A stretch of 54,373 bases of DNA, from contig JANSYF010000002.1 of assembly GCA_024742575.1 (NCBI GenBank), positions 81,352-135,724 of the forward strand. Direction: 5' to 3'. Shown here in pieces: positions 6,855 through 41,537 of the stretch. The notes beneath the pieces are model-generated. The model searched no databases, was not told the origin of the DNA, and was given only the letters and a program-made list of their open reading frames with translations. Both the position numbers and the translations under genes were made by a program. Every line of letters begins with the position of its first letter. The stretch's first letter is position 1. This DNA comes from Paracoccaceae bacterium (lineage in GTDB: Bacteria > Pseudomonadota > Alphaproteobacteria > Rhodobacterales > Rhodobacteraceae).

Positions 6855-6870
6855 GCAAAACCCCTTCTTG

Positions 6871-8590: not shown

Positions 8591-8591
8591 A

Positions 8592-24314: not shown

Positions 24315-24792
24315 GCGATGCGCGGCGGGCTGCGCCCGCTGTTTCGCGCGAGCTAGGAAAAACGGCCCTGACCGGACTTGGCCATAACTCGCCAATGTTG
24401 CGGTGCGGCCCGTCGAAGCTGCCGTTCGTGCATCCTGCAGCATTTTATCGGCTTAAACGTCGTTCAGCGGGACTTTGCAGCCTTTTGCACACGCGGCTAT
24501 TGCTGACGCAGCATTTGCTTAAACTGCGGCGATGGCAGTTTGGCGGCGCAGCATTATTCACCAAAGCAGTCGTTCAAATTGATCAACCTAGCCGCGCCTT
24601 GAATTGACTATTCGCCTAACAGTGCCGAGATTCACGTGTCTAAAACAAGGTATGCGATCTATCATAAATGACTGAAGGCAAGGGCGAAATATAGTGACGA
24701 CTGGTTTGAATTAAAAAGTCCCGACAAGGTCGCGAACTAAAGCGGCATCTAAGCGTTTGAACGCGGTGAAAGAGTGGCTATTCGACCAGCTT

Positions 24793-25572
24793 TCACCCCA
24801 AAAGAAAGTCCAGCTGCACGTCGAGTTGACACTGTCCCATTTGATGGCCGGACACTGTTGGGACTTCACCTGATTTCCCGATTTCCCAAAGTTGCGTAGG
24901 GGTTTTGCGGGTAATGACGTCACAAACCAACGCTGCAGATTTAATGTCTTTTTTGCAGAATGGCAGCGCGTCCGCGCAAGATTTTCCGAGCGTCGTGGCG
25001 TTGACCAAGATTGCAGAAGGCTTGGCAACGCCCGAGACTCTCACATCTGGCCAAAACTGCGCCACAAGATTTTGGACAGCCGCGGCGCGCGCAGGATCTG
25101 TTTCGTCAAGTACCATTTCGTCGATGCCCCTTTCACATAGCGCATCGACGATGGCGATCCCCGAACCTCCACCGGCCCCAAGGATATGCGCGACGCTGCC
25201 ATTGATCGGAATCCCTGTTGCATCGATCGCCGCGCACATCGCCAAACCGTCCGTCGCATCCCCGATCAATCGTCCGTTTTCGCATCGTACGGTGTTTACA
25301 GCGCCGAGCCGCGCAGCGCGCTGCGTACAGTCATCCATTGCGGCAAAGGCAGCCTGTTTATGCGGGTAGGTGACCGAACAGCCAATCATGTTGCCGCTGC
25401 TGCGCAAAAGATTCCAAAACATGCTGATCGCCGACACAGGAATTTCCATCGGGATCATCGCAATGTCCAAACCCCTATCTTGAAACAATAAGTTGAACGC
25501 AGGTGGGGAGAAAACGCCAGACACAGGGCTGCCGATGATCGGGAAAATTTGGGTGGTTCCGGTGATGGCCAT
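24793..25572 (-). CDS. Shikimate dehydrogenase-family protein, divergent
   Basis: A 259-residue AroE-fold NAD(P) oxidoreductase. The catalytic Lys is present in CSVTYPHKQAAF (near 70), Asn in GAVNTV, Asp in IGDATDGLA (near 107), the nucleotide loop in LGAGGGSGIAIV (near 131), and the C-terminal Gln in SGHQMGQCQLDV. The N-terminal carboxylate-binding motif, normally with Ser-x-Ser-Pro, reads GSPVSGVFSPPAFN, so the first Ser is lost. That points to a substrate other than shikimate itself. ATG 25572 follows a weak ribosome site. It faces the GntR gene across a perfect palindrome and is the last gene before the left repeat. Confidence 0.85.
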   Translation of the reverse strand: MAITGTTQIFPIIGSPVSGVFSPPAFNLLFQDRGLDIAMIPMEIPVSAISMFWNLLRSSGNMIGCSVTYPHKQAAFAAMDDCTQRAARLGAVNTVRCENGRLIGDATDGLAMCAAIDATGIPINGSVAHILGAGGGSGIAIVDALCERGIDEMVLDETDPARAAAVQNLVAQFWPDVRVSGVAKPSAILVNATTLGKSCADALPFCKKDIKSAALVCDVITRKTPTQLWEIGKSGEVPTVSGHQMGQCQLDVQLDFLLG

Positions 25573-25594
25573 CACTGATCTTTCAAAAAACGTG

Positions 25595-25625
25595 TTGACT
25601 CACTATCGAAAATATTTTCGATAAT
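25595..25625 (+). promoter_or_regulatory. Putative GntR operator and promoter
   Basis: The perfect 20-bp palindrome TATCGAAAATATTTTCGATA (25604-25623) lies in the 73-base gap between the divergent shikimate-dehydrogenase-like gene and gntR. TTGACT (25595-25600) and GATAAT (25620-25625) could be -35 and -10 hexamers with 19 bases between them (or TCGATA with 17), placing the palindrome over the promoter. The layout suggests repression of one or both genes by the adjacent GntR protein. The binding itself is inferred. Confidence 0.65.
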
Positions 25626-25645
25626 ATCCAATATTTTATAAAAAG

Positions 25646-26320
25646 GTGGGTAAATTGCTTTTTGGTGGCAGGAAATCTGAAGACGATACCGTTGTTGAAA
25701 TGCTCGCTTCTGCGATCCGGCGCGACATTTCATTTGGGGTGTTGCGCCCTGACCAGAAGCTCAAGCTTGCCGATCTGCGCCAGTCTTATGGTGGGTCAAA
25801 CCATTCCATGCGGGAAACATTGCGGATCCTGACGTCTGAAGGTGTGGTAGAGGCGACCAACCAGCGCGGATTCCGGGTGACATCGGCAACCGAGGAAGAT
25901 CTGCGGGACATTCTTTTGGTGCGGCTGGAAGTTGAAAAACTTGGTCTCAAATTGTCATTGAAACAAGGTGATGTGGCTTGGGAGAGCCGTGTTGTCGCCG
26001 CTTTGCATGCCGTTCGTCGGGCCGATGCTCTTGTGCAGGAAAGGCCCGATGATGTGACGGCACTGGAGTGGGACGAAGCCTGTCGCGACCTGAGTATGGC
26101 ACTGATGTCGGCCAGCGGATCGCCACGGCTGACAGACATGGCGGCGCAGTTTTACGGCCAGTCGCGGCGCTTTCGACTGGCGCTATTGCGCGAGGGGCGC
26201 ATCGACTTTGCAGCCCGCGCGACCCGCCGAACGCAGTTGCAGGAGGCAATCATCGCGCGGGAGGAGGCGCGCGCGGTGGGCATTCTGGAAGACGAGATTG
26301 GTGCTGACCTGGGCGCCTGA
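25646..26320 (+). CDS. GntR-family transcriptional regulator (FCD type)
   Basis: A 224-residue DNA-binding regulator. The winged helix-turn-helix covers about residues 15-80 (IRRDISFGVLRPDQKLKLADLRQSYGGSNHSMRETLRILTSEGVVEATNQRGFRV). The helical FCD effector domain follows, but the usual D-x-x-F-H segment reads WDEACRDLSMAL, so the metal-binding His is missing. GTG 25646 has no ribosome site; TTG 25655, five bases after AAGGTGG, is a likely alternative start. It sits at the head of the importer operon and probably controls that operon and the divergent dehydrogenase. Confidence 0.88.
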   Translation: MGKLLFGGRKSEDDTVVEMLASAIRRDISFGVLRPDQKLKLADLRQSYGGSNHSMRETLRILTSEGVVEATNQRGFRVTSATEEDLRDILLVRLEVEKLGLKLSLKQGDVAWESRVVAALHAVRRADALVQERPDDVTALEWDEACRDLSMALMSASGSPRLTDMAAQFYGQSRRFRLALLREGRIDFAARATRRTQLQEAIIAREEARAVGILEDEIGADLGA

Positions 26321-26353
26321 AAATAACGAAACGGATCATTTAGGGAGGAAACA

Positions 26354-27373
26354 ATGGTCACTTTTAACAGACGTCAAACAATGGGTTTGATCGGTGCCGC
26401 GGCGGCCACAAGCCTTGCAGCGCCAGCGATTGCGCAAAACAAAAAAATTGTCGTCGGGGCACTTCGCTTCACATCGCACTCGGCCAGTTTCGTCGCGGCA
26501 GAGCGCGCCTACTTCCAAGAGGCAGGCCTTGATGTCGAATTGCGGTTTTTCCAAGCGGCGCAGCCGATGGCTGTCGCGATTGCCTCTGGCGATGTAGACT
26601 ATGCCGTGACGGCGATCTCTGGCGGATTGATCTCTCTTGCCGACAAGGGCGCGATCAAAGTTATCGGCGGCGCGCTCAGCGAAGAGCCGGGCATTGACGG
26701 TCAGAAAATCCTCGCCTCCGACGCAGCGTTTCAAGCGGGTCTCACCTCGCCTGCGGTCTTGGATGGCAAGAAGTTTGGTATCTCGACGGCAGGTTCGTCC
26801 TTCCACTACATGGGCTCGAAAGTGGCTGAAGCGGAAGGCATCAACATGTCCTTTACGCCGCTTCAAAAAGTCGGCGCCATCATTGGTGCGCTGAAGTCAG
26901 GCCAGATTGATGCCTGGTCCATCGTGCCGCATATCGCCAAGCCACTGGCGGGCTCCGGTGCGGTTCATATCATTGGCAACGTATCCGACTATCTGCCGAA
27001 TTATCAGGTCACAACCGTGTTCACGTCTGCGACGAATGCGAACGATGAACGGCAGCAGACGTCGGACTTCCTCAAAGCGTTCAGCATGGGGGCGTCGGAT
27101 TACAATTCCGCCATGATCGACAAGTCCGGCGGAGAAGATGGTGTGAATGAGATGGTCGATCTGATCCACAAATATGTCTACACGGATCGTGAACGCGCCA
27201 AGGCTGCGCCGTCGATTATCAATGGCACGATGCGGATTAACGAAGGCGCACGGATGAACATTGCATCAGTTCAGGACCAGTTGAGCTGGTTCCAGTCCGA
27301 AGGCTTGATCGATGGGGATATCACCCTCGATACATTTGTAGACACAAGCTACGTTGAAACATTCGAGGCCTAA
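26354..27373 (+). CDS. ABC transporter substrate-binding protein (NMT1/SsuA-like)
   Basis: A 339-residue periplasmic binding protein. The N-terminus NRRQTMGLIGAAAATSLAAP with cleavage after AIAQ resembles a Tat signal (RRQTMGL). The body matches the SsuA/TauA/NMT1-like fold: KIVVGALRFTSHSASFVAAERAYFQEAGLDVELRFF and GKKFGISTAGSSFHYMGSKVAEAEGI. The family binds sulfonates, nitrate, pyrimidine precursors or aromatic acids. The context of shikimate-type enzymes suggests a cyclic carboxylate, which is inference. Shine-Dalgarno AGGGAGGA lies just ahead of ATG 26354. Confidence 0.85.
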   Translation: MVTFNRRQTMGLIGAAAATSLAAPAIAQNKKIVVGALRFTSHSASFVAAERAYFQEAGLDVELRFFQAAQPMAVAIASGDVDYAVTAISGGLISLADKGAIKVIGGALSEEPGIDGQKILASDAAFQAGLTSPAVLDGKKFGISTAGSSFHYMGSKVAEAEGINMSFTPLQKVGAIIGALKSGQIDAWSIVPHIAKPLAGSGAVHIIGNVSDYLPNYQVTTVFTSATNANDERQQTSDFLKAFSMGASDYNSAMIDKSGGEDGVNEMVDLIHKYVYTDRERAKAAPSIINGTMRINEGARMNIASVQDQLSWFQSEGLIDGDITLDTFVDTSYVETFEA

Positions 27374-27386
27374 GGCCCAAGCCTAA

Positions 27387-27417
27387 AGCTGACCGGCGTC
27401 GTCCGGTCAGCTGAGTT
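27387..27417 (+). terminator. Hairpin between binding-protein and ATPase genes
   Basis: A 10-bp perfect stem AGCTGACCGG, loop CGTCGT, CCGGTCAGCT, followed by GAGTTTTT. Inside an ABC operon such a hairpin usually acts as a partial terminator, or protects the upstream mRNA, giving more binding protein than ATPase. Confidence 0.75.
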
Positions 27418-27439
27418 TTTGCTTTACTAGGGTGAGTTC

Positions 27440-28207
27440 ATGGACATTCGCTTGGACGCGATCAGTCATTCCTATGGTGACACGGAGGTTCTGCGCGACA
27501 TTTCGCTGGACATTCCAAACGGCAAAATCGTTTGCCTTGTCGGCCCATCCGGGTGCGGTAAGTCCACGCTGTTGCGCCTCATCGGCGGGCTTGAACGCCC
27601 TTCCAAGGGTCGTGTCCTTCAGGTCGGCTCCCCACCTGAAGGCTGTCTAAACCCGCTCACGTTTGTCTTTCAGGACTTTGCCCTGCTGCCATGGCGGTCG
27701 GTTCAGGGGAATATCTCGCTTGTCCTTGAGGATCACGGAATCAAAGGGGCGCAAGCGGATGCAATCATCACGGACGTTCTTGCGCGCACCAAACTGAGTG
27801 ACTTTAGCAAAGCCCTGCCGCGGCAGCTGTCGGGCGGAATGAAACAACGCGTCGCAATTGCCCGCGCGCTTGCTGTCAAACCAGCGGTGATGCTGATGGA
27901 CGAACCCCTCTCTGCGCTGGACAGCCAGACCCGCGAATTGCTAATGGACGATCTTGTCGCGCTCTGGACACGCCAATTCTTTACCGCGGCCTACGTGACC
28001 CACAACCTGGCCGAGGCCGTCCGGTTGGGCCACTGCATTGTCGTCCTCTCGCGCCGACCCGGTGAAATCCGCGAGATCGTCGAAATTGATATGCCGCTGG
28101 CGGATCGCAGTCACGGAAATGCCAAGCTGGAACAGGTCCAGAAGCACCTTTGGGACATGATGCGCGATGAAGCCCGCGCGGCGGATGAGGAACTCTTAGA
28201 TGTCTGA
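27440..28207 (+). CDS. ABC transporter ATP-binding protein
   Basis: The 255-residue ATPase of the import system. Walker A is GPSGCGKSTLLR near residue 35, the Q-loop is FQDFALLPWRSV near 76, the signature is LSGGMKQRVAIARAL near 132, Walker B is VMLMDEPLSALD near 154, and the H-loop is AYVTHNLAEAV near 188. It matches the SsuB/TauB/NrtD class and pairs with the binding protein upstream and the permease downstream, overlapping the latter by eight bases. Confidence 0.92.
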   Translation: MDIRLDAISHSYGDTEVLRDISLDIPNGKIVCLVGPSGCGKSTLLRLIGGLERPSKGRVLQVGSPPEGCLNPLTFVFQDFALLPWRSVQGNISLVLEDHGIKGAQADAIITDVLARTKLSDFSKALPRQLSGGMKQRVAIARALAVKPAVMLMDEPLSALDSQTRELLMDDLVALWTRQFFTAAYVTHNLAEAVRLGHCIVVLSRRPGEIREIVEIDMPLADRSHGNAKLEQVQKHLWDMMRDEARAADEELLDV

Positions 28208-29009
28208 TGCAACGCTCCCATCCCAGCCGATTGAAGTCCGGTTTCGCGGTGGCGGCTTTGCCCCCAAGGCGCGCCGTTGGGTCGGACTGTTCGTTTTTGT
28301 TCTTCTGATCGGAATAACCGAGATCGGCACCCGGCAAGGATGGATATCGTCCTTGACCCTGCCCAAACCATCAGACGTTTTGGCCACGTTTGGCGAGCTT
28401 TGGGAAAGCGGGTTGTTGTTTAAACATCTCATCCCCTCGCTCAGCCGACTGGCCGTAGGGGCCACCATCGGGGCCTCAATTGGCATCGTTGTCGGCATCT
28501 TGATCGGGCTATTTTCATATGTCCGCGCGGGCATGGTGCCTCTTGTGGCTGCCATCTTCCCGATCCCCAAAATTGCGCTTTTGCCACTGTTTGTGATCTG
28601 GTTCGGAATCGATGAGGCCAGCAAATACGCGCTGATCGCCTTTGGTACCTTCACCCCCACGGTCGTGGCCACCTACGGCGCGGTGGACAACGTGGACCGG
28701 TCCCTTATCCGCATGGGCCAAAGCTTTGGGCTGTCGTGGCTGTCCATCGTACGCAAGATCGTATTGCCGGGCGCAATGCCAGGCATTCTGTCGGGGCTGC
28801 GGATTTCGCTGGCCATTGCCATCATCCTGCTTGTCGCAGCCGAGATGCTAGGCGCGGAATACGGGATTGGTGCCTATATCCTCGAGGCTGGTTCGCTCTA
28901 TGATCTTGAGCGCCTTTTCGCGGGCGTGGTTATCTTGTCGCTGCTGGGTGTCATCCTCAGCACGGTCATCGGCTTTATCGAACGTCGCATTCTTGGCTGG
29001 CGGGCATGA
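28200..29009 (+). CDS. ABC transporter permease (SsuC/TauC-like)
   Basis: A 269-residue membrane subunit with about six helices. The ATPase-contacting EAA loop reads DNVDRSLIRMGQSFGLSWLSIVRKIVLPGAMPGILSGL near residue 162. LFPxPKIALLPLFVIWFGIDEASK-type residues near 121 are typical of the SsuC/TauC group. It is coupled to the ATPase before it and to the flavoprotein after it (ATGA overlap), so the four genes form one unit. Confidence 0.92.
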   Translation: MSDATLPSQPIEVRFRGGGFAPKARRWVGLFVFVLLIGITEIGTRQGWISSLTLPKPSDVLATFGELWESGLLFKHLIPSLSRLAVGATIGASIGIVVGILIGLFSYVRAGMVPLVAAIFPIPKIALLPLFVIWFGIDEASKYALIAFGTFTPTVVATYGAVDNVDRSLIRMGQSFGLSWLSIVRKIVLPGAMPGILSGLRISLAIAIILLVAAEMLGAEYGIGAYILEAGSLYDLERLFAGVVILSLLGVILSTVIGFIERRILGWRA

Positions 29010-30211
29010 GTCGCAAACTCGAATGCGACTATGATGTCGTCGTCGCAGGCGGCGGAGCAGGCGGCGTTGGGGCCGCGTTGGGGGCCGCGCGCGAAGGTGC
29101 TGATGTGCTGCTGGTTGAGAAATACGGTTTTCTGGGTGGCGCTGCGACAACATCGAATGTGCTGGCCTATTGCGGGTTCTTTCAACAAGGCGAAACGCCG
29201 ATCAAGGCGGTGGGCGGGGTCGCAGACCTTGTGCTGGACGAGTTGCGTGAACTGGGACTGGATTGTAAGCCGTTTTGCTCACCCACGACGCTGAACTGGA
29301 TCATCCTGCTGGAACCGGAGTCTGTGAAGCTGGCGCTGGACCGCGTCTTGTCCAAAGCGGGCGTTGATGTTTTGCTGCACACCCGCGTGGCGGCGGTCAC
29401 CCGCACAGCGGACCGGATTCAATCGGTGACCCTTGCGGGGATGGAGGGCCGGAGACGGGTCGCGGCAAAGGCCTTCGTCGATGCGACAGGAGATGCCAAC
29501 CTTTCAATGCTGGCAGGGCTCACGTGCCGGATCGGCAATGATCGCGGCCACCTGCAGGCGGCCTCTGCCCCCATTTGCATTGGAGGCCGAGACCGGTCCG
29601 TCCCAATCGACCGTGACGCGCTGATTGCAGGCTTTGAGATTTACAACCGCACGGGCCAGTACCCCTCCGCACGAACCGATGGTGGTATATTCACCGAAGT
29701 CCCTCGTACTGGCGAGATGTGGTGGATGATGTTTGATCACGCGATGCCAGATCTGTCTTCCGAGAGTTTCACAAGTGCCGAGCAGGCCGCGCGTGGGGCA
29801 GCGCATGACTACACCGAAGTGCTCCGCGCGCATGTACCTGGGTTCGAGCAAGCCTACCTGAGCTCAACCGGCCCACAAATCGGCATCCGCGAAAGCCGCC
29901 ATCCCCCTGCGCGCTATGAATTGACGGCCGAGGACTTGCGATCAGGCCGCCAACGCAGCGATGGTGTCGCGAAAGCAGCCTGGCCGATCGAAGATCATTC
30001 CGTGCCGGGAAAACCGGTTTATCATTCTGTCGGAGGCGATGGATTTGCCGATATCCCGCTGGATTGCTTGCGCGCCAAGGGACTCGACAATGTCTACTAT
30101 GCTGGTCGGCTGATCGGGGCAGATGATATGGCTTATGGATCCATCCGCGTCATGGGTACAGCCTTCGCCACAGGAGAAGCCGCAGGCCGAGCCGCCAGTC
30201 AGGTGTCATGA
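29006..30211 (+). CDS. FAD-dependent oxidoreductase (FAD_oxidored family)
   Basis: A 401-residue flavoprotein. The dinucleotide motif is YDVVVAGGGAGGVGAALGAAREGADVLLVEK at residue 9. The middle has FVDATGDANLSMLAGL (near 153), and the C-terminus has GLDNVYYAGRLIGADDMAYGSIRVMGTAFATGEAAG, as in FAD-dependent oxidoreductases of the PF12831 type. The substrate is unknown. Its 4-base overlap with the permease gene implies it acts on the imported compound. It is 168 bases from the convergent AEC transporter gene, with no clear terminator. Confidence 0.85.
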   Translation: MSRKLECDYDVVVAGGGAGGVGAALGAAREGADVLLVEKYGFLGGAATTSNVLAYCGFFQQGETPIKAVGGVADLVLDELRELGLDCKPFCSPTTLNWIILLEPESVKLALDRVLSKAGVDVLLHTRVAAVTRTADRIQSVTLAGMEGRRRVAAKAFVDATGDANLSMLAGLTCRIGNDRGHLQAASAPICIGGRDRSVPIDRDALIAGFEIYNRTGQYPSARTDGGIFTEVPRTGEMWWMMFDHAMPDLSSESFTSAEQAARGAAHDYTEVLRAHVPGFEQAYLSSTGPQIGIRESRHPPARYELTAEDLRSGRQRSDGVAKAAWPIEDHSVPGKPVYHSVGGDGFADIPLDCLRAKGLDNVYYAGRLIGADDMAYGSIRVMGTAFATGEAAGRAASQVS

Positions 30212-30379
30212 TTGGGAAAATGTGGACCTGTCCCTCAATATCGGCCCTCAGCCGACGTTCATAGAGCAAGCGGTCGCGGTGATGCAGCATCGGCAAAGCA
30301 GTCTTTCGCATGCATCAAAGGGCAGTCCAAGAATAGTTACAGACCAAGAATTTGCCCCTAGGTGTTTAGCCCCGAGTCT

Positions 30380-31327
30380 TCAATTCAGAACGACGCTCAA
30401 GATAACACTCATGGTCAGAAATGAAACGACAGTCATCACCAGCATTGCCAGAGATGCGGTGCTCTCTTCTCCCGAGCTTCGCGCCAGAATCGGGTAAATT
30501 GACATAACCGGGGTCGAAGCGAGGATGATGGCCGCTGCAACGAGCCTCTCATCCTTTGCCCCAAAGCCGATCTGCGACAAGCCCAAAAGGCTAATCCCAA
30601 CCGCAAGCGGATGGAGGATGAGCTTTCCAAGCGCGATCCGGAAAACCGCTGGCTTTAACGCTTTGAACGGCAAGGCCGCGAGCGTACCGCCTATCACTGC
30701 CAAGGACACGGCTGCGCTTGCAGAAGCAAACAAGTCGATAGGCCGTGCAATGACGGCGGGAAGGGTGACTTTGGACGCTGACAGGAAAAGCCCCAAAGCA
30801 AGGGCAATTACGATTGGGTTGCGCACCAACCGCTTGGCGATTTTTCGGATCATCTGAGGGCGGGTCGATCCTCCTGCGTGCGCGTATTCTGCCATGATCA
30901 GAACAAGTGGGATCATCACCAGGTTTTCGACAATCATGTTCATCGCCAAGGCGGTCGCGGCCACATCCGGAAGAGCGACCAACAGGATGGGAAATCCGAT
31001 GAAACCGCTGTTTGCACAAGACATCCCCATGGCACTGAATGCACTTGCTGCTGCATTTTCTCCGGCGACGCTCCGCGACCATAGGTACCCGGCCCAAAAA
31101 ACAACGAGCGATCCGATCAGGACTGAGCCGAGGTACCCGATGTTAGCAAATTCACCGATCGGTTGCGTTGACACTGCGCGCAGAATCAACGCTGGCAACG
31201 CGAAATTGACGACAAACTTGCCGAGAGTTTGCATGTCTCCAGACGAAAACGGACCAACCCGCACGGCCAGGAATCCTGCCGAAATGACAACGAAAATCGT
31301 GCCGGTAATCGACAGGATATCTAGCAT
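30380..31327 (-). CDS. AEC-family transporter (auxin efflux carrier type)
   Basis: A 315-residue membrane protein with about ten helices in two five-helix halves. N-terminal ITGTIFVVISAGFLAVRVG, FVVNFALPALILRAVS and the mid-protein GFIGFPILLVALPDVA fit the AEC (PF03547) family, which includes malonate and other carboxylate transporters. It is 36 bases downstream of quiC on the same strand, so it probably belongs to the shikimate-type operon and may export or import an acid intermediate. Confidence 0.88.
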   Translation of the reverse strand: MLDILSITGTIFVVISAGFLAVRVGPFSSGDMQTLGKFVVNFALPALILRAVSTQPIGEFANIGYLGSVLIGSLVVFWAGYLWSRSVAGENAAASAFSAMGMSCANSGFIGFPILLVALPDVAATALAMNMIVENLVMIPLVLIMAEYAHAGGSTRPQMIRKIAKRLVRNPIVIALALGLFLSASKVTLPAVIARPIDLFASASAAVSLAVIGGTLAALPFKALKPAVFRIALGKLILHPLAVGISLLGLSQIGFGAKDERLVAAAIILASTPVMSIYPILARSSGEESTASLAMLVMTVVSFLTMSVILSVVLN

Positions 31328-31363
31328 CTACTGGGCGCTTTTGCCGGCGTCACGTTTTCAACC

Positions 31364-33253: not shown

Positions 33254-34101
33254 GCCGCCTCTCCCTGATCAAGCAAGTCAGCGCGGAGGCGTGCCTCGTC
33301 CAGCGGCAGGCCCGAGAAGTGCGCCCAGGCATGGACCCCTTGGAAGAAAAACAATTCGTAGCCCGATATGATCTTCAGGCCTTCCGCTGCCGCGTCCTGA
33401 AGGAACTGTGTATCCACGGGCGTATAGACCGCATCGAACACCCAATCCGCTCCGGCCATCGCCTCTCGCGGCAAGGGTGTTCCGCCATATCCCACCATCC
33501 CGACAGGTGTGCCGTTAAGGATACCCGTCACCCCGGATGCAGCCGCAACCGCATCTGTATAGACAACAACCTGCGGTGCATCCGGCGCAGCACGAAGGTC
33601 GCGGGCCAAGCCTTGCGCTTTTTCGTGATCCCGATCGACAAGTCGGATTTCGCTGACACCAAGCGCGACAAGCCCAAAGGCAAGCGCCCGCCCCACGCCG
33701 CCTGTTCCGATCAGACAGGCAACACCCGGAGCTTGATCACCGCGTACCCCGCGATACCCGGAGATAAACCCGGTATAATCGGTGTTGTGTCCCTTCGGGC
33801 CGTCTGCCTCGAACAAAACGGTGTTGACCGCCCCGATGGCGCACACAAGCGGGTCGGCGATGGCCACTTTTTTTGCCGCTCTTTCCTTATATGGGTAGGT
33901 CACATTGATGCCCCGGTAGCCCCGCGTGGCACAGGCGTCGAACACCGTGTCGAAGTCCTCGCCCATGTCTTTCGGAATCAAGCGATCATATTGAACCGTC
34001 ACTCGGTTCTGCGCGCCGGCAAGACGGTGCAGCAAGGGCGACTTTGAGCGTGCGATATTGTCCCCGATGAGACCGAGTTTCAGGGTCTGTGAAGCACTCA
34101 T
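33250..34101 (-). CDS. Shikimate/quinate dehydrogenase
   Basis: A 283-residue AroE-family enzyme. It keeps the canonical substrate motif GDNIARSKSPLLHR (near 14), catalytic Lys in GINVTYPYKERAAKK (near 72), Asp in KGHNTDYTGF (near 107), nucleotide loop IGTGGVGRALAFG (near 131) and the C-terminal SGYELFFFQGVHAWAHFSG. It should oxidise shikimate (or quinate) to the 3-dehydro acid. In an operon with QuiC and TctABC it is most likely catabolic rather than the biosynthetic aroE, so no symbol is given. It overlaps both tctA (stop 34098) and quiC (start 33253). Confidence 0.9.
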   Translation of the reverse strand: MSASQTLKLGLIGDNIARSKSPLLHRLAGAQNRVTVQYDRLIPKDMGEDFDTVFDACATRGYRGINVTYPYKERAAKKVAIADPLVCAIGAVNTVLFEADGPKGHNTDYTGFISGYRGVRGDQAPGVACLIGTGGVGRALAFGLVALGVSEIRLVDRDHEKAQGLARDLRAAPDAPQVVVYTDAVAAASGVTGILNGTPVGMVGYGGTPLPREAMAGADWVFDAVYTPVDTQFLQDAAAEGLKIISGYELFFFQGVHAWAHFSGLPLDEARLRADLLDQGEAA

Positions 34102-35612
34102 GCCCTTGGCCTTTCCTTGCTGAAGATACGCGCCTTGGCTTTCGTCCAGAGCGGCGTTTGAGAAACGAAAATCAGGATCACGGAGACAAACAAGACAAGC
34201 GACAGCGGGCTCGAAAAGATGCCGGCAAAAAAGCGCCCAAGGTCTTCCTGTTCCGAAATGATGGCGCGTCTCCAGTTGTCATCCAGCAAGCGCGACAGGA
34301 TCACGCCAAGGATCACGGGTCCAAGAGGATAGCCGTAGTGCCGCATGAAATATCCGAACACGCCGAAGCCCAGCATCCAGTAGACATCCGTGATCGAGTT
34401 GTTCACAGCGTAGGCCCCGACAATCGACAGGAGCATAATCAGCGGGATCAGAACGGAACGTGGCATTTCGACGATCCGGGTGAAAAGCTTGATGCCTGTC
34501 AGGCCAAAAATCAGCATGAAGATGTTGGCCATCACCAAACAACCGACGATGAACCAGAACATATCGGGCTGGTCGATCATCAGCATCGGACCCGGATTGA
34601 GGCCATGGATGAAAAGCGCACCGATCATGATCGCCGTCACCGCATCGCCTGGAATGCCAAGCGTCATCATCGGGATGAACGCTCCGCCCACGGCCGCATT
34701 GTTCGCGGTTTCGGGTGCCACAAGACCTTCCATCGCACCGTCTCCGAAGGGACGTTCAGGATTTTTGGTGACGCGCTTGGCGTGATCGTAGGCCATGAGT
34801 GCTGCGATATCGCCTCCCGTGCCGGGAAGTGCGCCAATGATCACGCCGATGGACGACGTCTGAAGCGACAGCGGAAGGTGCTTTTTTACAGTCGACAACG
34901 ATGGCACAATCCGGCTGATCTTCTGACGCACGGCGTCCTTATTGACGTGGTGTAGCTGCAACAGCGCCTCGGACACGCCGAACATGCCGATCATTACTGC
35001 GATGAACGAAATGCCACCTTCGAGCAGTTGAAAGTCGAAGGTGAACCGTTCCGCAAATGTCAGAGGGTCGCGCCCGACGGCACCGATCGCGATGCCAAGC
35101 GCACCGGCGAAAATGCCTTTGACCAGCGATCCCTGGCTGAGCGAACCGACCAGAAGAATGCCGAGGATCGCAAGCAGCATGTAGTCGCGCGGCTGAAATC
35201 GCAGGGCAAAATCCGACACAAGTGGCGCTGCCAGCGCAAGAACGCCGATCCCGACAAACCCACCGATAATGGACATGACCGTGGTCACCCCGATCGCCGT
35301 TCCTGCCTCGCCGCGTTTGGCCATCGGATAGCCATCCAAGGCGGTCGCGATTGCCGATGGCGCACCGGGGATATTGAGCAGGATCGCCGTGCGCGATCCA
35401 CCATAGACCCCACCCATATAGATCCCGATCATGAGCGAGATCGCCGGGTAGACATCCCATGAAAACGTAAAGGAGATCAGGATCGACACCGCCATGGTGA
35501 CCGACAAACCCGGGATTGCGCCGACATAAATGCCCGCGAAGGTTCCAAGACCAACCAAAAGCAGCAACTCGGGCTGTGTGAATACAGTCAGAAAATCCAT
35601 GAATGCGGTCAT
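34098..35612 (-). CDS. tctA: Tripartite tricarboxylate transporter large membrane subunit TctA
   Basis: A 504-residue permease with about 12 helices. The first conserved motif GTFAGIYVGAIPGLSVTMAVSIL (near 22) and its repeat IIGALPGTGGDIAALMAYDHAKR (near 257) are the TctA signatures, with the GGVYGGSRTAILLNIPGAPSAIATALDGYPMAKRG block near 67. The family imports di- and tricarboxylates and aromatic acids such as terephthalate or protocatechuate using a binding protein. Its coupling to shikimate dehydrogenase suggests a hydroaromatic acid as cargo. Confidence 0.95.
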   Translation of the reverse strand: MTAFMDFLTVFTQPELLLLVGLGTFAGIYVGAIPGLSVTMAVSILISFTFSWDVYPAISLMIGIYMGGVYGGSRTAILLNIPGAPSAIATALDGYPMAKRGEAGTAIGVTTVMSIIGGFVGIGVLALAAPLVSDFALRFQPRDYMLLAILGILLVGSLSQGSLVKGIFAGALGIAIGAVGRDPLTFAERFTFDFQLLEGGISFIAVMIGMFGVSEALLQLHHVNKDAVRQKISRIVPSLSTVKKHLPLSLQTSSIGVIIGALPGTGGDIAALMAYDHAKRVTKNPERPFGDGAMEGLVAPETANNAAVGGAFIPMMTLGIPGDAVTAIMIGALFIHGLNPGPMLMIDQPDMFWFIVGCLVMANIFMLIFGLTGIKLFTRIVEMPRSVLIPLIMLLSIVGAYAVNNSITDVYWMLGFGVFGYFMRHYGYPLGPVILGVILSRLLDDNWRRAIISEQEDLGRFFAGIFSSPLSLVLFVSVILIFVSQTPLWTKAKARIFSKERPRA

Positions 35613-36187
35613 TGGGCCATGCCTCCCCTGATCAGCCCGCGAAAAAGCTGGATAAACTCAGCTTCCGGGACGATCCCAGCGGGCATCAGCACGCTGAACA
35701 CGATGCGGAAGATCAGCCAGATCACGATCAGGCTGGTCAGGGACACGGTCAGCGTCCAAAGCCAGCCGCGTTTTGACAAAAGCTTGATCGCGACGATGAG
35801 AAAAAGTGCTGACGTCGGCAGAAAGCCCAGAGGCCGCAAAAGAACTCCGTAGGCAATCAAAAACAGCGCAAACAGCACTGCTGTGACGGGAAGGATGTCA
35901 CGCGCGAGGGTCTCGGATCGATCAAGCGGCAGCTTGGCCGTCTTGAAAATGATGATCGCCGCCGAGATCACCATTGCAAGTGTCGCTGCGACCGGGATGG
36001 ACCGCGGGGCAGACAAACCGTTGGGTCCAAAGGGGTTCTCGATTCCCCAGGCACTCCAGAGCAGTCCAACACTGGCGATCAAAAGGAACCCGGCAAAAAA
36101 CACCTCGCCGGGCCGCCGCTTGTCACGTTCGCCGCCGGGCGTCGCATCGGATGTGCCGTCGTGGTGTTCTGGGTCGATGTGCTCCAT
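35609..36187 (-). CDS. tctB: Tripartite tricarboxylate transporter small membrane subunit TctB
   Basis: A 192-residue membrane protein with four helices after a polar N-terminus (MEHIDPEHHDGTSD). Helices cover VFFAGFLLIASVGLLWSAW, IPVAATLAMVISAAIIIF, the ILPVTAVLFALFLIAYGVLL region and LTSLIVIWLIFRIVF. ATG 36187 follows GGGAGGAG closely, so the longer frame to 36250 is not used. It overlaps tctA by four bases. Confidence 0.92.
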   Translation of the reverse strand: MEHIDPEHHDGTSDATPGGERDKRRPGEVFFAGFLLIASVGLLWSAWGIENPFGPNGLSAPRSIPVAATLAMVISAAIIIFKTAKLPLDRSETLARDILPVTAVLFALFLIAYGVLLRPLGFLPTSALFLIVAIKLLSKRGWLWTLTVSLTSLIVIWLIFRIVFSVLMPAGIVPEAEFIQLFRGLIRGGMAQ

Positions 36188-36283
36188 GGTCTCCTCCCGT
36201 GGGCGTGAATGAATTGGGCGCCGCACTTCGCGGAGAAATGCGGCGCCCATAGTCGGCAGTTGCCCTAAGGGCTGCCAGGGAGA

Positions 36284-37285
36284 TTATTCTCCGGGACGCG
36301 CGATCCCGAATTCTTCCGGAGACGCTTTGGTCAGGTCAGCGTCTTGCAGAAGCCATGCTGTTCCCTGCTGCCATTTGCTCAGGAAAGCGTCCGCCTCGTC
36401 ACCCGTGATCGCCATCAGCGTAAAGCCACGATCGTCCATTAGTTGTACGAAATCGGGATGCTGTGCGCCGGTGGCATATGCCGCCGAAAGCTTCGCAACC
36501 ACATCGTCCGGAGTGCCGTTCGGAACAAACACGCCGAAGAAGGGACCCCACGGCAGGTAGGTGTTATACGCGTCATTGAACTGTGTGATGTAGGGCGCAT
36601 CCGGCAGTTTCGTATTGGCCGCCACATCCATAATGGCCAACACTTTCATGTTGCCGGCACGGATGCCTTCGATGGCAGCGCCAAGAACGGCTGGCATCAC
36701 GTCAATCGCACCGCCCTGAAGGCCGGTCAGCGCGGGTCCGTCACCGTCATAGGGAACGGCCGTCACATCGAGACCGCCCTCAACTGACGAGATCATCGCG
36801 GTGACGACGGACGGCAGACCACCCGGACCGGTCGAGCCGAACTTCACTTCGCCCGGATTCTCTTTGATATACGCCATCATCTCGGCATAGTCGTTGAACG
36901 GAGAATTCGGGTTCGCGACAAGAACCGGCGTGCCACGTGCAAGGATCGAGATCGGAGTAAACTCGCTGTAGTCTTTGTCACCCAAGCCCATGACCTTGTA
37001 GAGCAAGGGGTTCTCGGCACCCATCAGCAGGGTGTAGCCATCGGCTGCCGAGCCCGCAACGTGGTTCAGGGCAATTGCGCCAACCGCGCCGGTCATGTTC
37101 TGCATGACCACAGTTCCGCCAAGCGCTTCTTCAGCATGGGGCGTGACGGACCGCATCACGGTATCGGTAGAGCCACCGGCGCCCCATTGAATGATGCCTT
37201 GAATTTCTTTCTCAGGATACTCTGCGACCGCTGCAGTCGCAGTCAGTGCCAACGCGCTCAGCGCGCCTATGATCATCCGCTTCAT
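36284..37285 (-). CDS. tctC: Tripartite tricarboxylate transporter binding protein TctC
   Basis: A 333-residue periplasmic binding protein with signal peptide MKRMIIGALSALALTATAAV ending AEYPEKEI. It has the Bug/TctC features QGIIQWGAGGSTDTVMRSV (near 28), KFGSTGPGGLPSVVTAMI (near 147) and VPYDGDGPALTGLQGGAIDVMP (near 177). Its ligand would be shikimate, quinate or a related acid, by context only. A strong GGGAGGAG site precedes the start. It is the first structural gene after the regulator and a likely inducible promoter. Confidence 0.94.
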   Translation of the reverse strand: MKRMIIGALSALALTATAAVAEYPEKEIQGIIQWGAGGSTDTVMRSVTPHAEEALGGTVVMQNMTGAVGAIALNHVAGSAADGYTLLMGAENPLLYKVMGLGDKDYSEFTPISILARGTPVLVANPNSPFNDYAEMMAYIKENPGEVKFGSTGPGGLPSVVTAMISSVEGGLDVTAVPYDGDGPALTGLQGGAIDVMPAVLGAAIEGIRAGNMKVLAIMDVAANTKLPDAPYITQFNDAYNTYLPWGPFFGVFVPNGTPDDVVAKLSAAYATGAQHPDFVQLMDDRGFTLMAITGDEADAFLSKWQQGTAWLLQDADLTKASPEEFGIARPGE

Positions 37286-37320
37286 GGTTCTCCTCCCTAG
37301 TGGTGCGAATTTTGCGCCGG

Positions 37321-37343
37321 TTAGACCGACACGCCATGTCTAA
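37321..37343. promoter_or_regulatory. Putative LysR operator ahead of tctC
   Basis: The inverted repeat TTAGAC-N11-GTCTAA sits 36 bases ahead of the tctC start codon. A partly symmetrical site of this spacing (T-N11-A core) is what LysR-type regulators bind. Adjacent sequence (CTTAACGTCAAATACC region, 37362-37377) may hold a second half-site. Confidence 0.55.
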
Positions 37344-37394
37344 CTTATGGTGTCACGAATACCTTAACGTCAAATACCTATTTGGCCCCGACAT

Positions 37395-37407
37395 TAACAT
37401 GATGTTA
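37395..37407. promoter_or_regulatory. TAAC-N5-GTTA palindrome at the lysR 3' end
   Basis: TAACATGATGTTA is a perfect palindrome around a central G and overlaps the lysR stop codon. The same TAAC-N5-GTTA pattern occurs at 38354-38366 in front of lysR, suggesting a shared binding protein, most simply the LysR regulator encoded between them. Confidence 0.4.
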
Positions 37408-38331
37408 TTTTTGCCCCCCATACCAAGGTCCATCTTCAACGGCCTTACCCAATTCCCGACGAAACTGCCCGATCGTGTATTCGGCGAACCCGGACAAAAC
37501 CCTGCCTTTCTTGCGCGACACGAAGCTTTTTACGCGCACGTCCTCGACCAGTGGCCGCCGGACCAGTCCGGGCATGTAGACCTCGGCAACGGAAAATTCA
37601 TCAATGATCGCGACCCCCAGCCCATGCCGAACCATGCTGATCAATGTTTGCGCGAACCGACCTCTCATCGCGTGTCGAGGCTCCACTCCCGCGATATGAA
37701 ACGGGCGCGCAAGAAGATCGCCATAGGGATCGGACGGATCGACGCCGATGAGGGCTTCGGTACTCAGGTCACGAACCGAAACCGCTTCTTTCCTTGCAAG
37801 AGCATGGCCTTCGGGCAGAACGACAACCAGACGCCCTTCCGCGATCTCTTCGTTTTCAATCGCGGCGTTCTGGACAGCCGAACTCATGATCACGAACTCG
37901 CCACGCTCCAGCAGCAGGTAGTCGACGGTTTCTTCTATCTTGAGCACGTTCAGATCGACAAACAAATCCTCATACTTGCTGCGCACCTGACGCATCACAC
38001 GCGCAGCGATGAATTGAGCAATGGATGGCGCTGTTGCGAAGGACAGTTGGACATCCTCGCCTTTTTGCAAGGACCCGACGGCGACCTGAAGGTTTTCGAC
38101 CCCCTTGTAGACTTCACGCACCTGATCGAACACGCGGGCGGCTTCGACCGATGGTGTGAACAACCCGGCCTTGCGTTCAAAAAGCCGGATTCCGAGAGAG
38201 TCTTCGGTATGCTTGACCAAGCGACTGATCCCTGGAGCCGAGACATTGAGCATGTCCGCGGCGCCACTGATCGTGCCCGTCATCATCACAGCCCGAATGA
38301 CTTCGATCTGCCTTAGGGTCATCTCTGGCAT
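37405..38331 (-). CDS. LysR-family transcriptional regulator
   Basis: A 308-residue regulator. The N-terminal helix-turn-helix is MTLRQIEVIRAVMMTGTISGAADMLNVSAPGISRLVKHTEDSLGIRLFERK, and the effector-binding domain covers about residues 90-300. It is divergent from the flavoprotein gene at 38446 and upstream of tctC on the same strand, so it can act on both. The inducer is presumably the transported acid or an early intermediate. A GGAGGGAG ribosome site supports ATG 38331. Confidence 0.93.
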   Translation of the reverse strand: MPEMTLRQIEVIRAVMMTGTISGAADMLNVSAPGISRLVKHTEDSLGIRLFERKAGLFTPSVEAARVFDQVREVYKGVENLQVAVGSLQKGEDVQLSFATAPSIAQFIAARVMRQVRSKYEDLFVDLNVLKIEETVDYLLLERGEFVIMSSAVQNAAIENEEIAEGRLVVVLPEGHALARKEAVSVRDLSTEALIGVDPSDPYGDLLARPFHIAGVEPRHAMRGRFAQTLISMVRHGLGVAIIDEFSVAEVYMPGLVRRPLVEDVRVKSFVSRKKGRVLSGFAEYTIGQFRRELGKAVEDGPWYGGQK

Positions 38332-38353
38332 CGGCTCTCCCTCCGGATCAGAT

Positions 38354-38366
38354 TAACCTGAAGTTA
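38354..38366. promoter_or_regulatory. TAAC-N5-GTTA site between lysR and the flavoprotein gene
   Basis: TAACCTGAAGTTA lies in the 114-base divergent intergenic region, 23 bases ahead of the lysR start, where autoregulation would be expected. It matches the half-sites of the palindrome at 37395-37407. A further palindrome ATTTG-TG-CAAAT at 38416-38427 lies just ahead of the flavoprotein start. Confidence 0.45.
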
Positions 38367-38445
38367 CGATCACGCAAGAATAAGCATTTGACGTTATCCT
38401 CCGGGTTGGCAGAACATTTGTGCAAATTTGAACGTGGAGCGACCT

Positions 38446-40131
38446 GTGACCACCGAAACATGCGATCTTCTTGTAGCTGGCTCCGGTGCCGCGGGGCTTG
38501 CTGCCGCGGTCACGGCGGCGCATCGCGGTTTGGACGTGGTCCTAGTCGAGAAGGACGATGTAATAGGCGGAACTACAGCGTGGTCCGGTGGCTGGATTTG
38601 GGCTCCGTGCAATCCGATTGCGAAGTCCAATGGCGTCGACGACGATCAGTCCGAGCCGCGGCGCTACCTGGAAGCTGTTCTGGGCAACACGTTCAATGCC
38701 GAGCTGGTAGATGCCTTTTTGGCAGGTGCTCCAGAAATGGTAGGTTTTTTCCACAACCACACCGCGCTCAGGTTTGATCCCGGACTGCACATCCCGGACA
38801 CCTACAGCGATCTGCCGGGTGCTGGAACAGGCGGGCGATCCGTGATCGCACAGCCCTATGATGCGCGCGGTCTTGGGGTGATTGCCACGCGGATGCGGCG
38901 ACCCTTGCCCGAAACCAGCTTTTGGGGTCTGACCATTCAAGCTGGGCCGGACCTAAAGGCGTTCATAACCGCCACTCGGTCGTTCCGTTCCGCAGCCCAT
39001 GTTACCGCACGCTTGACACGTCATCTGTGGGACCTCGCACGCCATGGCCGGGCGATGCAGCTCAGGAACGGTCAGGCGCTTGTCGGGCGGTTGCTGCGAT
39101 CCGCAATGGATGCTGGCGTTGACATACGCACAGGTTCTGCCATCGCCTCGCTTGGTCATGGATCGCAGGGTATTTCCGGAGCACGGATCGACGGCCCTGA
39201 CGGACGGTATGCAATCCACACGAAACGCGGTGTTGTCCTTGCCTGCGGTGGTTTTCCGCAGGACATAGAAAGACGGAAACAGCAATTTCCGAAACCGGAA
39301 ATACATCGAACGCTCGCTGTCCCATCGGCCTCGGGCGACGGGCTCAGGTTGGGCGAAAGCGTAGGCGGTCACCAAGCAACCACACTGGCATCCCCTGGCG
39401 CGTGGTGCCCGGTCTCTGAGGTCACTTGGCCAGATGGAAGAACGGGCGTTTTTCCACATATCATCGATCGGGGCAAACCGGGGGTCATTGGGGTCCTGAC
39501 AAACGGCGAACGCTTCTGCAACGAGGGAATGGGCTACCACGATTATGTCACGGCCATGTTGGATGCTGTCGGACCGACTGGCATGCCAGAGTCTTGGTTT
39601 GTCTGCGACCACAGGTTTCTCCGACGCTATGGCTTGGGCATCGTACGTCCGGCACCGGTTCCAATCCGCCCATGGCTCAGTTCCGGATACCTGAAAACTG
39701 GTCGAACGCTTGCCGGTCTCGCGGAGACCTGCGGCATCGACCAAACGGGTCTGCAAGCAAGTGTCGCAGCGTTCAATGCGGATGCCAAAATCGGTGTGGA
39801 CCGTGCATTTGGCAGGGGAACCACACCATATATGCGCCTTCAAGGCGATGCCGAAGTTCAACCCAACCCGTGCCTTGCGCCAATCGAGCAGGCACCATTC
39901 TACGCCGTACGGGTCATCCCCGGCAGCTTTGGCACCTTCGCCGGTCTGAAAACCGACGGCGAGGCCAGGGTGCTGGATGCGGGTGGTGTTCCGATTCCGG
40001 GGCTTTACGCAGCGGGTACGGACATGGCGAGCACTATGGGAGGCCACTACCCTGCCGGAGGCATCAATCTCGGGCCCGCACTGACTTTCGGATTCATCGC
40101 AGGTCGCCACGCAGCAGGAAACGGACGATGA
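38446..40131 (+). CDS. FAD-binding dehydrogenase (fumarate reductase/KstD-like flavoprotein)
   Basis: A 561-residue flavoprotein. The N-terminal dinucleotide fold is CDLLVAGSGAAGLAAAVTAAHRGLDVVLVEKDDVIGGTTAWSGG and the C-terminal FAD contact is GLYAAGTDMASTMGGHYPAGGINLGPALTFGFIAGRHA. The family introduces double bonds next to carbonyl or carboxyl groups (3-ketosteroid dehydrogenases, fumarate reductases, tricarballylate dehydrogenase). GTG 38446 is preferred because GGAG lies six bases ahead; TTG 38428 lacks a site. It is coupled by ATGA to the TIM-barrel gene. A role in desaturating a hydroaromatic ring is inference from context. Confidence 0.88.
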   Translation: MTTETCDLLVAGSGAAGLAAAVTAAHRGLDVVLVEKDDVIGGTTAWSGGWIWAPCNPIAKSNGVDDDQSEPRRYLEAVLGNTFNAELVDAFLAGAPEMVGFFHNHTALRFDPGLHIPDTYSDLPGAGTGGRSVIAQPYDARGLGVIATRMRRPLPETSFWGLTIQAGPDLKAFITATRSFRSAAHVTARLTRHLWDLARHGRAMQLRNGQALVGRLLRSAMDAGVDIRTGSAIASLGHGSQGISGARIDGPDGRYAIHTKRGVVLACGGFPQDIERRKQQFPKPEIHRTLAVPSASGDGLRLGESVGGHQATTLASPGAWCPVSEVTWPDGRTGVFPHIIDRGKPGVIGVLTNGERFCNEGMGYHDYVTAMLDAVGPTGMPESWFVCDHRFLRRYGLGIVRPAPVPIRPWLSSGYLKTGRTLAGLAETCGIDQTGLQASVAAFNADAKIGVDRAFGRGTTPYMRLQGDAEVQPNPCLAPIEQAPFYAVRVIPGSFGTFAGLKTDGEARVLDAGGVPIPGLYAAGTDMASTMGGHYPAGGINLGPALTFGFIAGRHAAGNGR

Positions 40132-40958
40132 TGCGCCAGATTTCCCTCGCACATCTGACTGCACTCGATCTGTCACCCCCCAAATTGATCGAAGCAGCGG
40201 CCAAGGCAGGCTTTGACGCGGTAGGACTGCGATTGATCCGCGTCACGGACACGACCCCCGGATACCCACTGATGGGGGCCACGAAGATGATGACCGAGAC
40301 CAAGGCGGCATTGCAGGACACCGAACTCTCAGTCAGCGACATCGAGTTTGTGAAAATCGAGCCAAAGACCGATCTGTCCGCCCTTTCCCCATTCCTCGAT
40401 GCAGGGGCCGAACTTGGCGCGCGCGAAGTCATCTGCGCGCCCTATGACCCGGACCTAAGCCGTCTCGCAGACAACCTCGGCACGTTATCTGAGTTGGCCA
40501 AGTCCCGCGGCCTCGGCGTGTCTCTCGAATTTTTCCCGTGGACGGTTGTCCCTGATCTGGCAAGCGCCCACAAGATCGTGGAAAACGCAGGTCCAGACGT
40601 CGGCATTCTTATTGATACATTGCATTTTGATCGCTCCGGAAGTTCACTTTCGGAATTGCGGGGACTGCCCGAACACCGAATGCGACTTGCACATCTGTGT
40701 GATGCATCTGTTCAACAATCCTATTCAACGGATGAGCTGCTGTTCACAGCACGTGCAGAACGCCTTCCGCCAGGTGAAGGACAAATAGACCTCGGCCCCA
40801 TTCTAACTGAACTTCCGAAATCGCTTCCGATTGGTCTTGAGGTTCCGATGGCCAGCCGTGTCGCTGTCGTCGGCCATGACGTCTTTCTGAAGCACCTCAT
40901 CGCCGCGACTCGGTCCCTGTTGGCTGATACATACACCGACATTGCGGAAGCTGAATGA
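40128..40958 (+). CDS. AP-endonuclease-2-like TIM barrel (isomerase/dehydratase, AsbF-like)
   Basis: A 276-residue xylose-isomerase-like barrel. Likely metal ligands are Glu134 (GVSLEFFPW), Asp163 (GILIDTLHFDRSG), His189 (MRLAHLCDA) and Glu238 (PIGLEVPM), an E-D-H-E set. The fold covers sugar-phosphate isomerases, epimerases and single-domain 3-dehydroshikimate dehydratases such as AsbF (about 280 residues). In this island a dehydratase or isomerase on a cyclic acid is reasonable but unproven. ATG 40128 overlaps the flavoprotein stop, so the long upstream frame is ignored. It is the last island gene before the right repeat. Confidence 0.8.
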   Translation: MMRQISLAHLTALDLSPPKLIEAAAKAGFDAVGLRLIRVTDTTPGYPLMGATKMMTETKAALQDTELSVSDIEFVKIEPKTDLSALSPFLDAGAELGAREVICAPYDPDLSRLADNLGTLSELAKSRGLGVSLEFFPWTVVPDLASAHKIVENAGPDVGILIDTLHFDRSGSSLSELRGLPEHRMRLAHLCDASVQQSYSTDELLFTARAERLPPGEGQIDLGPILTELPKSLPIGLEVPMASRVAVVGHDVFLKHLIAATRSLLADTYTDIAEAE

Positions 40959-41270: not shown

Positions 41271-41280
41271 CCAACGTAAC

Positions 41281-41525: not shown

Positions 41526-41537
41526 ACATTTCGCAGC

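Follow-up and report, generated by a model that had tools for sequence, protein, structure and literature searches.

In the described quinate/shikimate funnel, represented by QuiC1 of Pseudomonas putida and by QsuB with the qsuABCD genes of Corynebacterium glutamicum, a dehydrogenase of the shikimate dehydrogenase (SDH) family and a two-domain dehydratase lead to protocatechuate. Flavoproteins of the KstD type oxidize the carbon-carbon bond beside a ring ketone; they include the steroid enzyme KstD1 (4c3x; 7p18) as well as ChcC1 and ChcC2 (NF053676 and NF053677) of cyclohexanecarboxylate aromatization, a route whose end product is 4-hydroxybenzoate. Small TIM barrels such as IolI, AsbF and Lmo2234 (2g0w) form a third set of relevant proteins, and the last of these presumably belongs to a shikimate cluster of Listeria.

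Here we analyzed a window of 54,373 nucleotides from Paracoccaceae bacterium (GCA_024742575.1, contig JANSYF010000002.1, positions 81,352 to 135,724), and in particular its segment 24793-40958. A sequence-only reading had described this segment as one hydroaromatic-acid island, and all the genes that it named are present, with strong family matches. The segment nevertheless resolves into two separate conserved units, module A (30380-40958) and module B (24793-30211). The core shikimate funnel in module A is ordinary, and a regulon-linked pair, consisting of a KstD-like putative desaturase and a small TIM barrel, is a real and widely conserved extension of it. Compared with the P. putida and C. 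glutamicum funnels, module A adds TctABC uptake and an operator common to the funnel genes and to the divergent pair, and lacks an adjacent quinate-specific dehydratase in the window. Such an extension was not met in the open literature searched, where KstD-type terms were not combined with shikimate or QuiC terms.

Gene order, distribution and operator of module A

Module A has the layout lysR-tctCBA-sdh-quiC1(-AEC), divergent from the kstD-like and TIM barrel (tim) genes. Its compact minus-strand run begins with a LysR-family regulator (37405-38331; PF00126 and PF03466), which lies between tctC and kstD in most relatives of the module, and continues with a TctC-type binding protein (36284-37285; PF03401), TctB (35609-36250; PF07331), the TctA permease (34098-35612; PF01970), a shikimate/quinate-dehydrogenase-type enzyme (33250-34101; PF08501; hereafter SDH), QuiC1, a two-domain 3-dehydroshikimate dehydratase (31364-33253; AP_endonuc_2 and HPPD-type domains), and, as the final gene, an AEC-type carrier (30380-31327; PF03547). 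The tctB/tctA, tctA/sdh and sdh/quiC1 pairs each overlap by 4 bp. On the plus strand, the KstD/ChcC2-like flavoprotein (38428-40131; FAD_binding_2; TTG start, with the choice of start codon uncertain) is followed by the metal-type TIM barrel (40131-40958; AP_endonuc_2), the kstD stop codon and the ATG of the barrel gene overlapping by a single base.

To follow these genes in the family, the same 248 genomes were searched with six of the window's proteins. Orthologs of the barrel (at least 56% identity) and of the KstD-like protein (at least 61%) were found in the same 16 genomes, adjacent to each other in 15 and on two contigs in the remaining one (G042). All 16 also encode QuiC1 (E-value up to 1e-60; 70 of 248 genomes overall, p 4e-10) and SDH (E-value up to 1e-50; 47 of 248 overall, p 3e-13). 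According to gene order taken from tblastn, 13 of the 15 pair genomes other than the present one have the full arrangement, the exceptions being G222, with no lysR match, and G042, with kstD apart. The arrangement extends to plasmids. Eight plasmid loci were picked from 190 records with a single site that accounts for most of the KstD query. Six of them have lysR and kstD-tim pointing away from each other, with tct and sdh following lysR; tct and a close sdh are missing from L003, and of these genes the Bosea locus (L005) holds nothing but the pair. The flavoprotein and barrel bear only generic names in all eight records, and in the Alloyangia record quiC1 is unannotated and was found by tblastn.

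When the genome collection was scanned with the barrel alignment, 103 loci were confirmed and 80 of these kept. At the set identity limits these 80 contain kstD in 66 cases, tctA in 54 (77-96% identical to the window's TctA), sdh in 53, lysR in 52 and quiC1 in 47; kstD, tctA and sdh occur together in 51, and 42 of these have quiC1 as well. Hosts include Rhodobacterales, Acetobacteraceae, Roseibium, Methylobrevis, an Oceanospirillaceae genome and Vibrio furnissii. Twelve loci hold none of the five genes at these limits, two of which, from Gluconacetobacter (L169 and L171), do have more distant sdh, kstD and quiC1 homologs. Pfam analysis of ten proteins from L122, L160, L162 and L137 (the last of which has kstD) revealed no clear theme. 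The AEC carrier is rarely linked to the module, being found beside tim in L126 (50% identity) and near tct in L077 (37%) and L079 (33%).

The two transcription directions of module A are connected by a LysR-type palindrome, TTAAC-N5-GTTA, which occurs in its exact form twice in the window. The first copy, TTAACCTGAAGTTA (38353-38366), lies in the divergent lysR/kstD promoter, ahead of kstD-tim, and the second, TTAACATGATGTTA (37394-37407), between lysR and tctC, ahead of tctCBA-sdh-quiC1 and overlapping the stop end of lysR. With one mismatch allowed there are five further placings in the window, besides reverse readings of the two exact sites, and none of them falls in module B. We measured 53 lysR/kstD gaps (the window and 52 loci), aligned the 46 that are 60-180 bases long and dropped seven for their length. 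The elements that the aligned gaps have in common are the palindrome and TTGACGTT, a conserved -35-like element (38388-38395, plus strand), which is present in 42 of the 46. Its distance from the operator start is 35 bases in the window, and likewise in all 32 regions with both elements exact.

The operator was then counted in 109 sequences, comprising the window, 80 genome-contig loci, 20 SDH loci and eight plasmid loci, both in its exact form and in a relaxed form with one end base free. With the window included, 38 of the 52 lysR-kstD gaps have the exact and 48 the relaxed form; the corresponding numbers for the 60 lysR-tctC gaps are 34 and 55. Among the 50 loci with both gaps, 44 bear the operator in each, in one form or the other. 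The relaxed form is also found ahead of tctC in three loci with lysR-tct-sdh and no kstD. Shuffled controls yielded 0.03 exact operators per set and 0.16 relaxed operators per 46 regions; since these were mononucleotide shuffles and the loci share ancestry, the operator counts are descriptive and do not represent probabilities. The sharing of the operator suggests that the genes of module A form a single catabolic regulon switched by LysR, which is predicted to bind the palindrome.

The flavoprotein and TIM barrel pair and its possible substrates

SDH of module A is most similar among solved structures to quinate/shikimate dehydrogenase of C. glutamicum (3jyo, E-value 3e-43), and QuiC1 matches its P. 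putida namesake (5hmq, E-value 1e-172) over residues 1-619 of 629, with a TIM barrel fused to an HPPD-like domain. The active-site residues listed for P. putida QuiC1 (PMC7442255) are R64, L97, E134, L136, D165, H168, Q191, S206, R210 and E239, and all ten of them are kept in the window's protein. QuiC1 scores 646.6 bits against a cut-off of 1200 for the NCBIfam equivalog NF042435, and we therefore withhold the exact equivalog name and retain the wider two-domain class. The proposal of a shikimate-type funnel to protocatechuate made of SDH, QuiC, Tct and LysR is supported for module A.

The flavoprotein is probably a cyclic-ketone alpha,beta-desaturase, judging by its residues and family scores. 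In KstD1, Tyr487 and Gly491 activate the ketone, and Tyr318 and Tyr119 form the base tyrosine pair (PMC5348764). Residues Y370, Y541 and G545 of the window's protein correspond to Y318, Y487 and G491, and are invariant in 17 of 17 rows (the window and 16 of 67 homologs). The protein thus shares with KstD1 the family, the flavin adenine dinucleotide (FAD) motif, the ketone-activating Tyr/Gly and one base tyrosine; it differs in lacking Tyr119 and in having a ring-acid rather than steroid gene context. Only the generic NCBIfam subfamily PRK06134 is exceeded (795.3 bits, cut-off 747), whereas scores for 3-oxosteroid 1-dehydrogenases remain below their cut-offs (PRK07843, 377.9 against 788; PRK12844, 420.1 against 789; PRK12845, 307.8 against 793). 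Like ChcC1 and ChcC2, it appears to be a KstD-type flavoprotein for an oxo ring acid, and ChcC2, the desaturase of an oxocyclohexene carboxylate, gives the higher score of the two (492.6 bits, against 312.4 for ChcC1). Both values are far under the respective cut-offs of 900 and 1000, and the window's enzyme differs further in its SDH and barrel partners and in the protocatechuate end product expected of its module.

The structure model of the barrel is of high quality (predicted local distance difference test score, pLDDT, of 95.6), and its nearest folds are IolI, Lmo2234 and QuiC1, with template modeling (TM) scores of about 0.7-0.8. AsbF, to which the earlier description had likened this TIM barrel, is at rank 22 and thus structurally less close than these three. 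Despite the common fold, Lmo2234, IolI and AsbF are only about 16-24% identical to the window's barrel in structural alignments and have other gene neighbors. The barrel retains E134, D165, E239, His168 and Arg210 of QuiC1. Residues E134, D165, Q191 and E239 of QuiC1, which we take to be its metal ligands, correspond to E133, D162, H188 and E237, with His in place of Gln, and the active-site residues R64 and S206 are not kept, their counterparts being T80 and A207. Six residues of the barrel (E133, D162, E237, H165, R208 and R211) are invariant in all 37 rows compared, namely the window and 36 of 80 homologs. We regard the barrel as a probable dehydratase acting on a 3-oxo ring acid. It is unlikely simply to stand in for QuiC1, since QuiC1 accompanies the pair in 16 of 16 genomes instead of being absent from them.

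Conversion of 3-dehydroshikimate to protocatechuate needs only the loss of water, and the conserved desaturase therefore implies a substrate that is more reduced by two hydrogens; a saturated shikimate analog would fit on chemical grounds. Building on gene order, co-occurrence, the operator sequence, catalytic residues and a protocatechuate dioxygenase gene in the genome, we tentatively favor, with slightly less than even confidence, a scenario in which the pair is a redox-adding bypass of QuiC1 within the LysR-switched regulon, ending in protocatechuate; its substrate, reaction order and products are all predicted. TctABC would import a hydroxylated six-membered ring acid, the 3-hydroxyl of which SDH would turn into a ketone. 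If the ring had the double bond of shikimate, the product would be 3-dehydroshikimate, which QuiC1 would dehydrate to protocatechuate. If the ring were saturated, as in a dihydroshikimate-type compound, QuiC1 could not complete the conversion. In that case the barrel, acting in the manner of QuiC1, would eliminate the hydroxyl beta to the ketone; the KstD-like flavoprotein would take two hydrogens alpha,beta to the ketone, leaving a dienone to tautomerize to protocatechuate. The flavoprotein step on the enone would be of the same kind as aromatization by ChcC2.

The end product of module A is very probably protocatechuate, because homologs of its genes form runs with pca genes. In Rhizobiales TNE-4 (L165) a Liv importer, an sdh-like gene (34% identity), kstD, tim, quiC1, pcaH, pcaG and further genes follow one another in one direction; pcaG is followed by a lyase-family gene, an open reading frame with matches to pcaD and, further on, to pcaC, and lastly a BKACE gene. 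The Gluconacetobacter locus L169 has a row of pcaC, kstD, an AroE-like gene, CoA-transferase, thiolase, an MFS carrier, an sdh-like gene (30%), tim and quiC1, and L171 is the same for the genes scored. In the present genome, the protocatechuate 3,4-dioxygenase gene pcaH is on another contig (G000:C41, 63% identity). These associations bear on a further scenario, in which the flavoprotein desaturates C4-C5 of 3-dehydroshikimate or 3-dehydroquinate and the pair makes gallate. It would be chemically simple, and a tannase/feruloyl-esterase gene lies near module A in Alloyangia. Relatives join pcaHG instead, and the annotations around the eight plasmid loci include no gallate dioxygenase, although no search aimed at gallate genes was made; we consider gallate improbable.

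The distribution of quiC1 can be accommodated in two ways. Seven of 20 SDH loci outside the pair loci (L072, L074, L077, L079, L082, L086 and L090) have SDH and Tct without the pair, five of them with quiC1, and six loci (L007, L008, L058, L061, L066 and L067) have SDH, Tct and the pair without an adjoining quiC1. Such a pattern fits two alternative ends of one funnel. All 16 pair genomes have QuiC1, and in each of the four searchable cases of the six it is encoded at another place in the genome, which would also agree with a pair supplying QuiC1 with 3-dehydroshikimate. According to this alternative, the KstD-like enzyme would form the C1=C2 bond to give 3-dehydroshikimate, the barrel, as an epimerase or isomerase, would give an unusual isomer the required stereochemistry, and protocatechuate would always be made by QuiC1. 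In L165, kstD and tim directly precede quiC1; the folds closest to that of the barrel include isomerases and epimerases, and as the third metal ligand the barrel has His, which epimerases use, rather than the Gln of QuiC1. The six loci with no local quiC1 speak against such feeding, their force being reduced by the four genomes with quiC1 elsewhere. Nearly as economical as the bypass, this alternative is in our estimation unlikely, yet deserving serious attention.

The nearest solved relative of SDH being a quinate/shikimate dehydrogenase, the module could also be a quinate pathway, with the barrel as 3-dehydroquinate dehydratase and the flavoprotein as an auxiliary. The rarity of aroQ at such loci would agree with this assignment: a local aroQ is found in one of 82 SDH-Tct loci and in two of 13 SDH loci without Tct (some genomes being counted twice). 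The classes of this count were left out of the assessment of pair presence, as its ten loci classed as lacking the pair include some, such as that of G042, with barrel and kstD at separate places. It would, however, leave a conserved flavoprotein without a task, and AroQ-type genes do occur close to the pair or module, between the barrel and kstD genes in L168 and near module A in L002. The present genome also has an AroQ elsewhere, and a quinate pathway of this kind seems to us rather improbable. In the L168 cluster as a whole (4269-9795), an ABC (ATP-binding cassette) importer is followed by a barrel, the AroQ-type dehydratase, two KstD-like genes and another barrel.

Five paralogous clusters, in four family genomes (G097, G153, G216 and G219) and in an Oceanospirillaceae genome (L172-L175 and L159), contain at least one KstD-like gene together with an SDH-family gene, an IclR regulator and a barrel. 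They have Liv or Tct uptake and no quiC1 at the locus, and tctA of G219 (L172) is 93% identical to that of the window. Probably these are sister alicyclic-acid pathways, and the trio of SDH-family enzyme, KstD-like protein and barrel looks like a reusable unit. A broader form of the bypass scenario is accordingly possible, although we hold it with some reserve: the pair would be an undescribed route that dehydrates and aromatizes ring-saturated hydroxycyclohexane carboxylates of the dihydroshikimate type straight to protocatechuate, parallel to QuiC1 and under the same LysR switch, and the trio, with Liv or Tct uptake and often with two KstDs in paralogous clusters, would be a general toolkit for the aromatization of alicyclic acids.

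Several observations weigh against the bypass. Both QuiC1 and SDH are under their NCBIfam equivalog cut-offs, SDH scoring 205.9 bits against 235 for PRK12549 and 153.2 against 515 for PRK14027 (quinate/shikimate dehydrogenase), and in one pair genome (G017) the SDH match has an internal stop. The barrel departs from QuiC1 at R64, L97, L136, Q191 and S206, and could therefore be an isomerase or epimerase. Tyr119 of KstD1 is replaced by T125, at a position not conserved among the homologs. KstD homologs (45-50% identity) adjoin SDR genes without a barrel in five more loci (L176-L180), meaning that the flavoprotein family is not specific to the module A pathway. The presence of quiC1 elsewhere in all four searchable genomes belongs here too. 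A literature search turned up no bacterial growth on dihydroshikimate; in the part of one source considered, this word is used for the substrate of EC 4.2.1.118, i.e. dehydroshikimate (PMC8706239). Finally, the genome is 87% complete and has no AroE-family gene beyond 24793-25575 and 33250-34101: the only two Shikimate_dh_N proteins in the assembly are both in the window, and no separate biosynthetic AroE was found. The latter may lie in the missing part of the assembly, or one of the two SDH homologs may be biosynthetic.

Module B and the flanking genes

In module B, an AroE-like dehydrogenase gene (24793-25575, minus strand; PF08501; best PDB match 4k28) is divergent from a plus-strand run identified by family matches: a GntR/FCD regulator (25646-26320), an NMT1-type binding protein (26354-27373), an ABC ATPase (27440-28207), an ABC permease (28200-29009) and a PF12831 FAD-dependent oxidoreductase (FAD_oxidored; 29006-30211), the start of which overlaps the permease gene by 4 bp. 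The regulator was missing from the initial gene list and occupies an equivalent place in L045-L047, L069 and L070. The AroE-like protein keeps the family residues K73, N94, D109 and Q250, and presumably K73 and D109 are the catalytic Lys/Asp, with the serines of the SxSP motif binding carboxylate. The changed substrate motif noticed earlier is real: in GSPVSGVFSP, V22 replaces the first Ser of SxSP.

Orthologs of the module B flavoprotein (at least 57% identity) are present in six of the 248 genomes, in all six with an AroE-like gene nearby. The ABC genes adjoin the flavoprotein in G199, G215 and G238 (L069-L071) and in L045; the short contig of G195 shows no ABC genes, and G215 has no GntR match. 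The window's flavoprotein, at 401 aa against 418-428 aa in its orthologs, has a shorter C-terminus, and its structure model (pLDDT 48) was too poor to be used. The importer had been called SsuABC-like, a name that proved too specific for what is indeed an ABC importer: its binding protein scores 65.2 bits against a SsuA_fam cut-off of 163.5. We set aside sulfonate import on account of this score and because no annotated neighbor of module B in the records examined is named sulfonate monooxygenase. On two plasmids module B does have sulfur-linked neighbors (TauE/SafE in L045, 3325-4137; cysPTW in L047, 10470-13976), weak hints of a sulfonate or other sulfur role. Module B is probably a separate unit of AroE-like enzyme, flavoprotein and ABC importer for another ring compound.

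The notion that all of 24793-40958 serves one pathway, as the sequence-only reading proposed, draws on the SDH-family enzyme and flavoprotein that each module holds, on the Alloyangia pacifica plasmid NZ_CP022193.1 (182 kb; L006 and L046), which carries both modules about 100 kb apart, and on AroE-like genes of the module B or L003 type in some module A and paralogous loci. Against it, the present genome is the only one of the 248 with both modules, where 0.39 would be expected (p 0.33), and QuiC1 is found in three of the six module B genomes, not above chance (p 0.22). Furthermore, neither form of the operator occurs in the window's module B, and the exact form is absent from five other module B loci. 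With genome overlap at chance level and no operator in module B, we set the single island aside and regard one pathway as very improbable; module B most likely sits beside module A by chance, and the Alloyangia plasmid may point to a looser link. Co-occurrence in this genome only, the outcome that the earlier reading named as its own refutation, applies within the 248 genomes to the two halves together and not to module A, which recurs elsewhere. Extending the funnel to the AroE-like, ABC and FAD_oxidored half is not supported. As for its extra flavoproteins, gene order in many genera, presence/absence and the shared operator tie the KstD-like protein and the barrel to the funnel and leave out the flavoprotein of module B.

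Beyond the segment lie genes for a BLUF blue-light sensor domain protein (23474-23926), an Imm11-family immunity protein (41538-42191) and a formylglycine-generating-enzyme-like (FGE-sulfatase) domain protein (42315-43421). No RNA elements reached the gathering score within 24500-41600.

Implications for ring-acid catabolism

The set of kstD, sdh, tctA and barrel genes is found in 51 of the 80 species loci, nearly all of them in Alphaproteobacteria, and on several plasmids. Its operator renders the regulon directly testable. If the bypass scenario is correct, the quinate/shikimate funnel gains a redox branch, and a gene set for aromatizing saturated ring acids becomes available. It would also give a meaning to many proteins currently annotated as 'FAD-dependent oxidoreductase' and 'sugar phosphate isomerase'.

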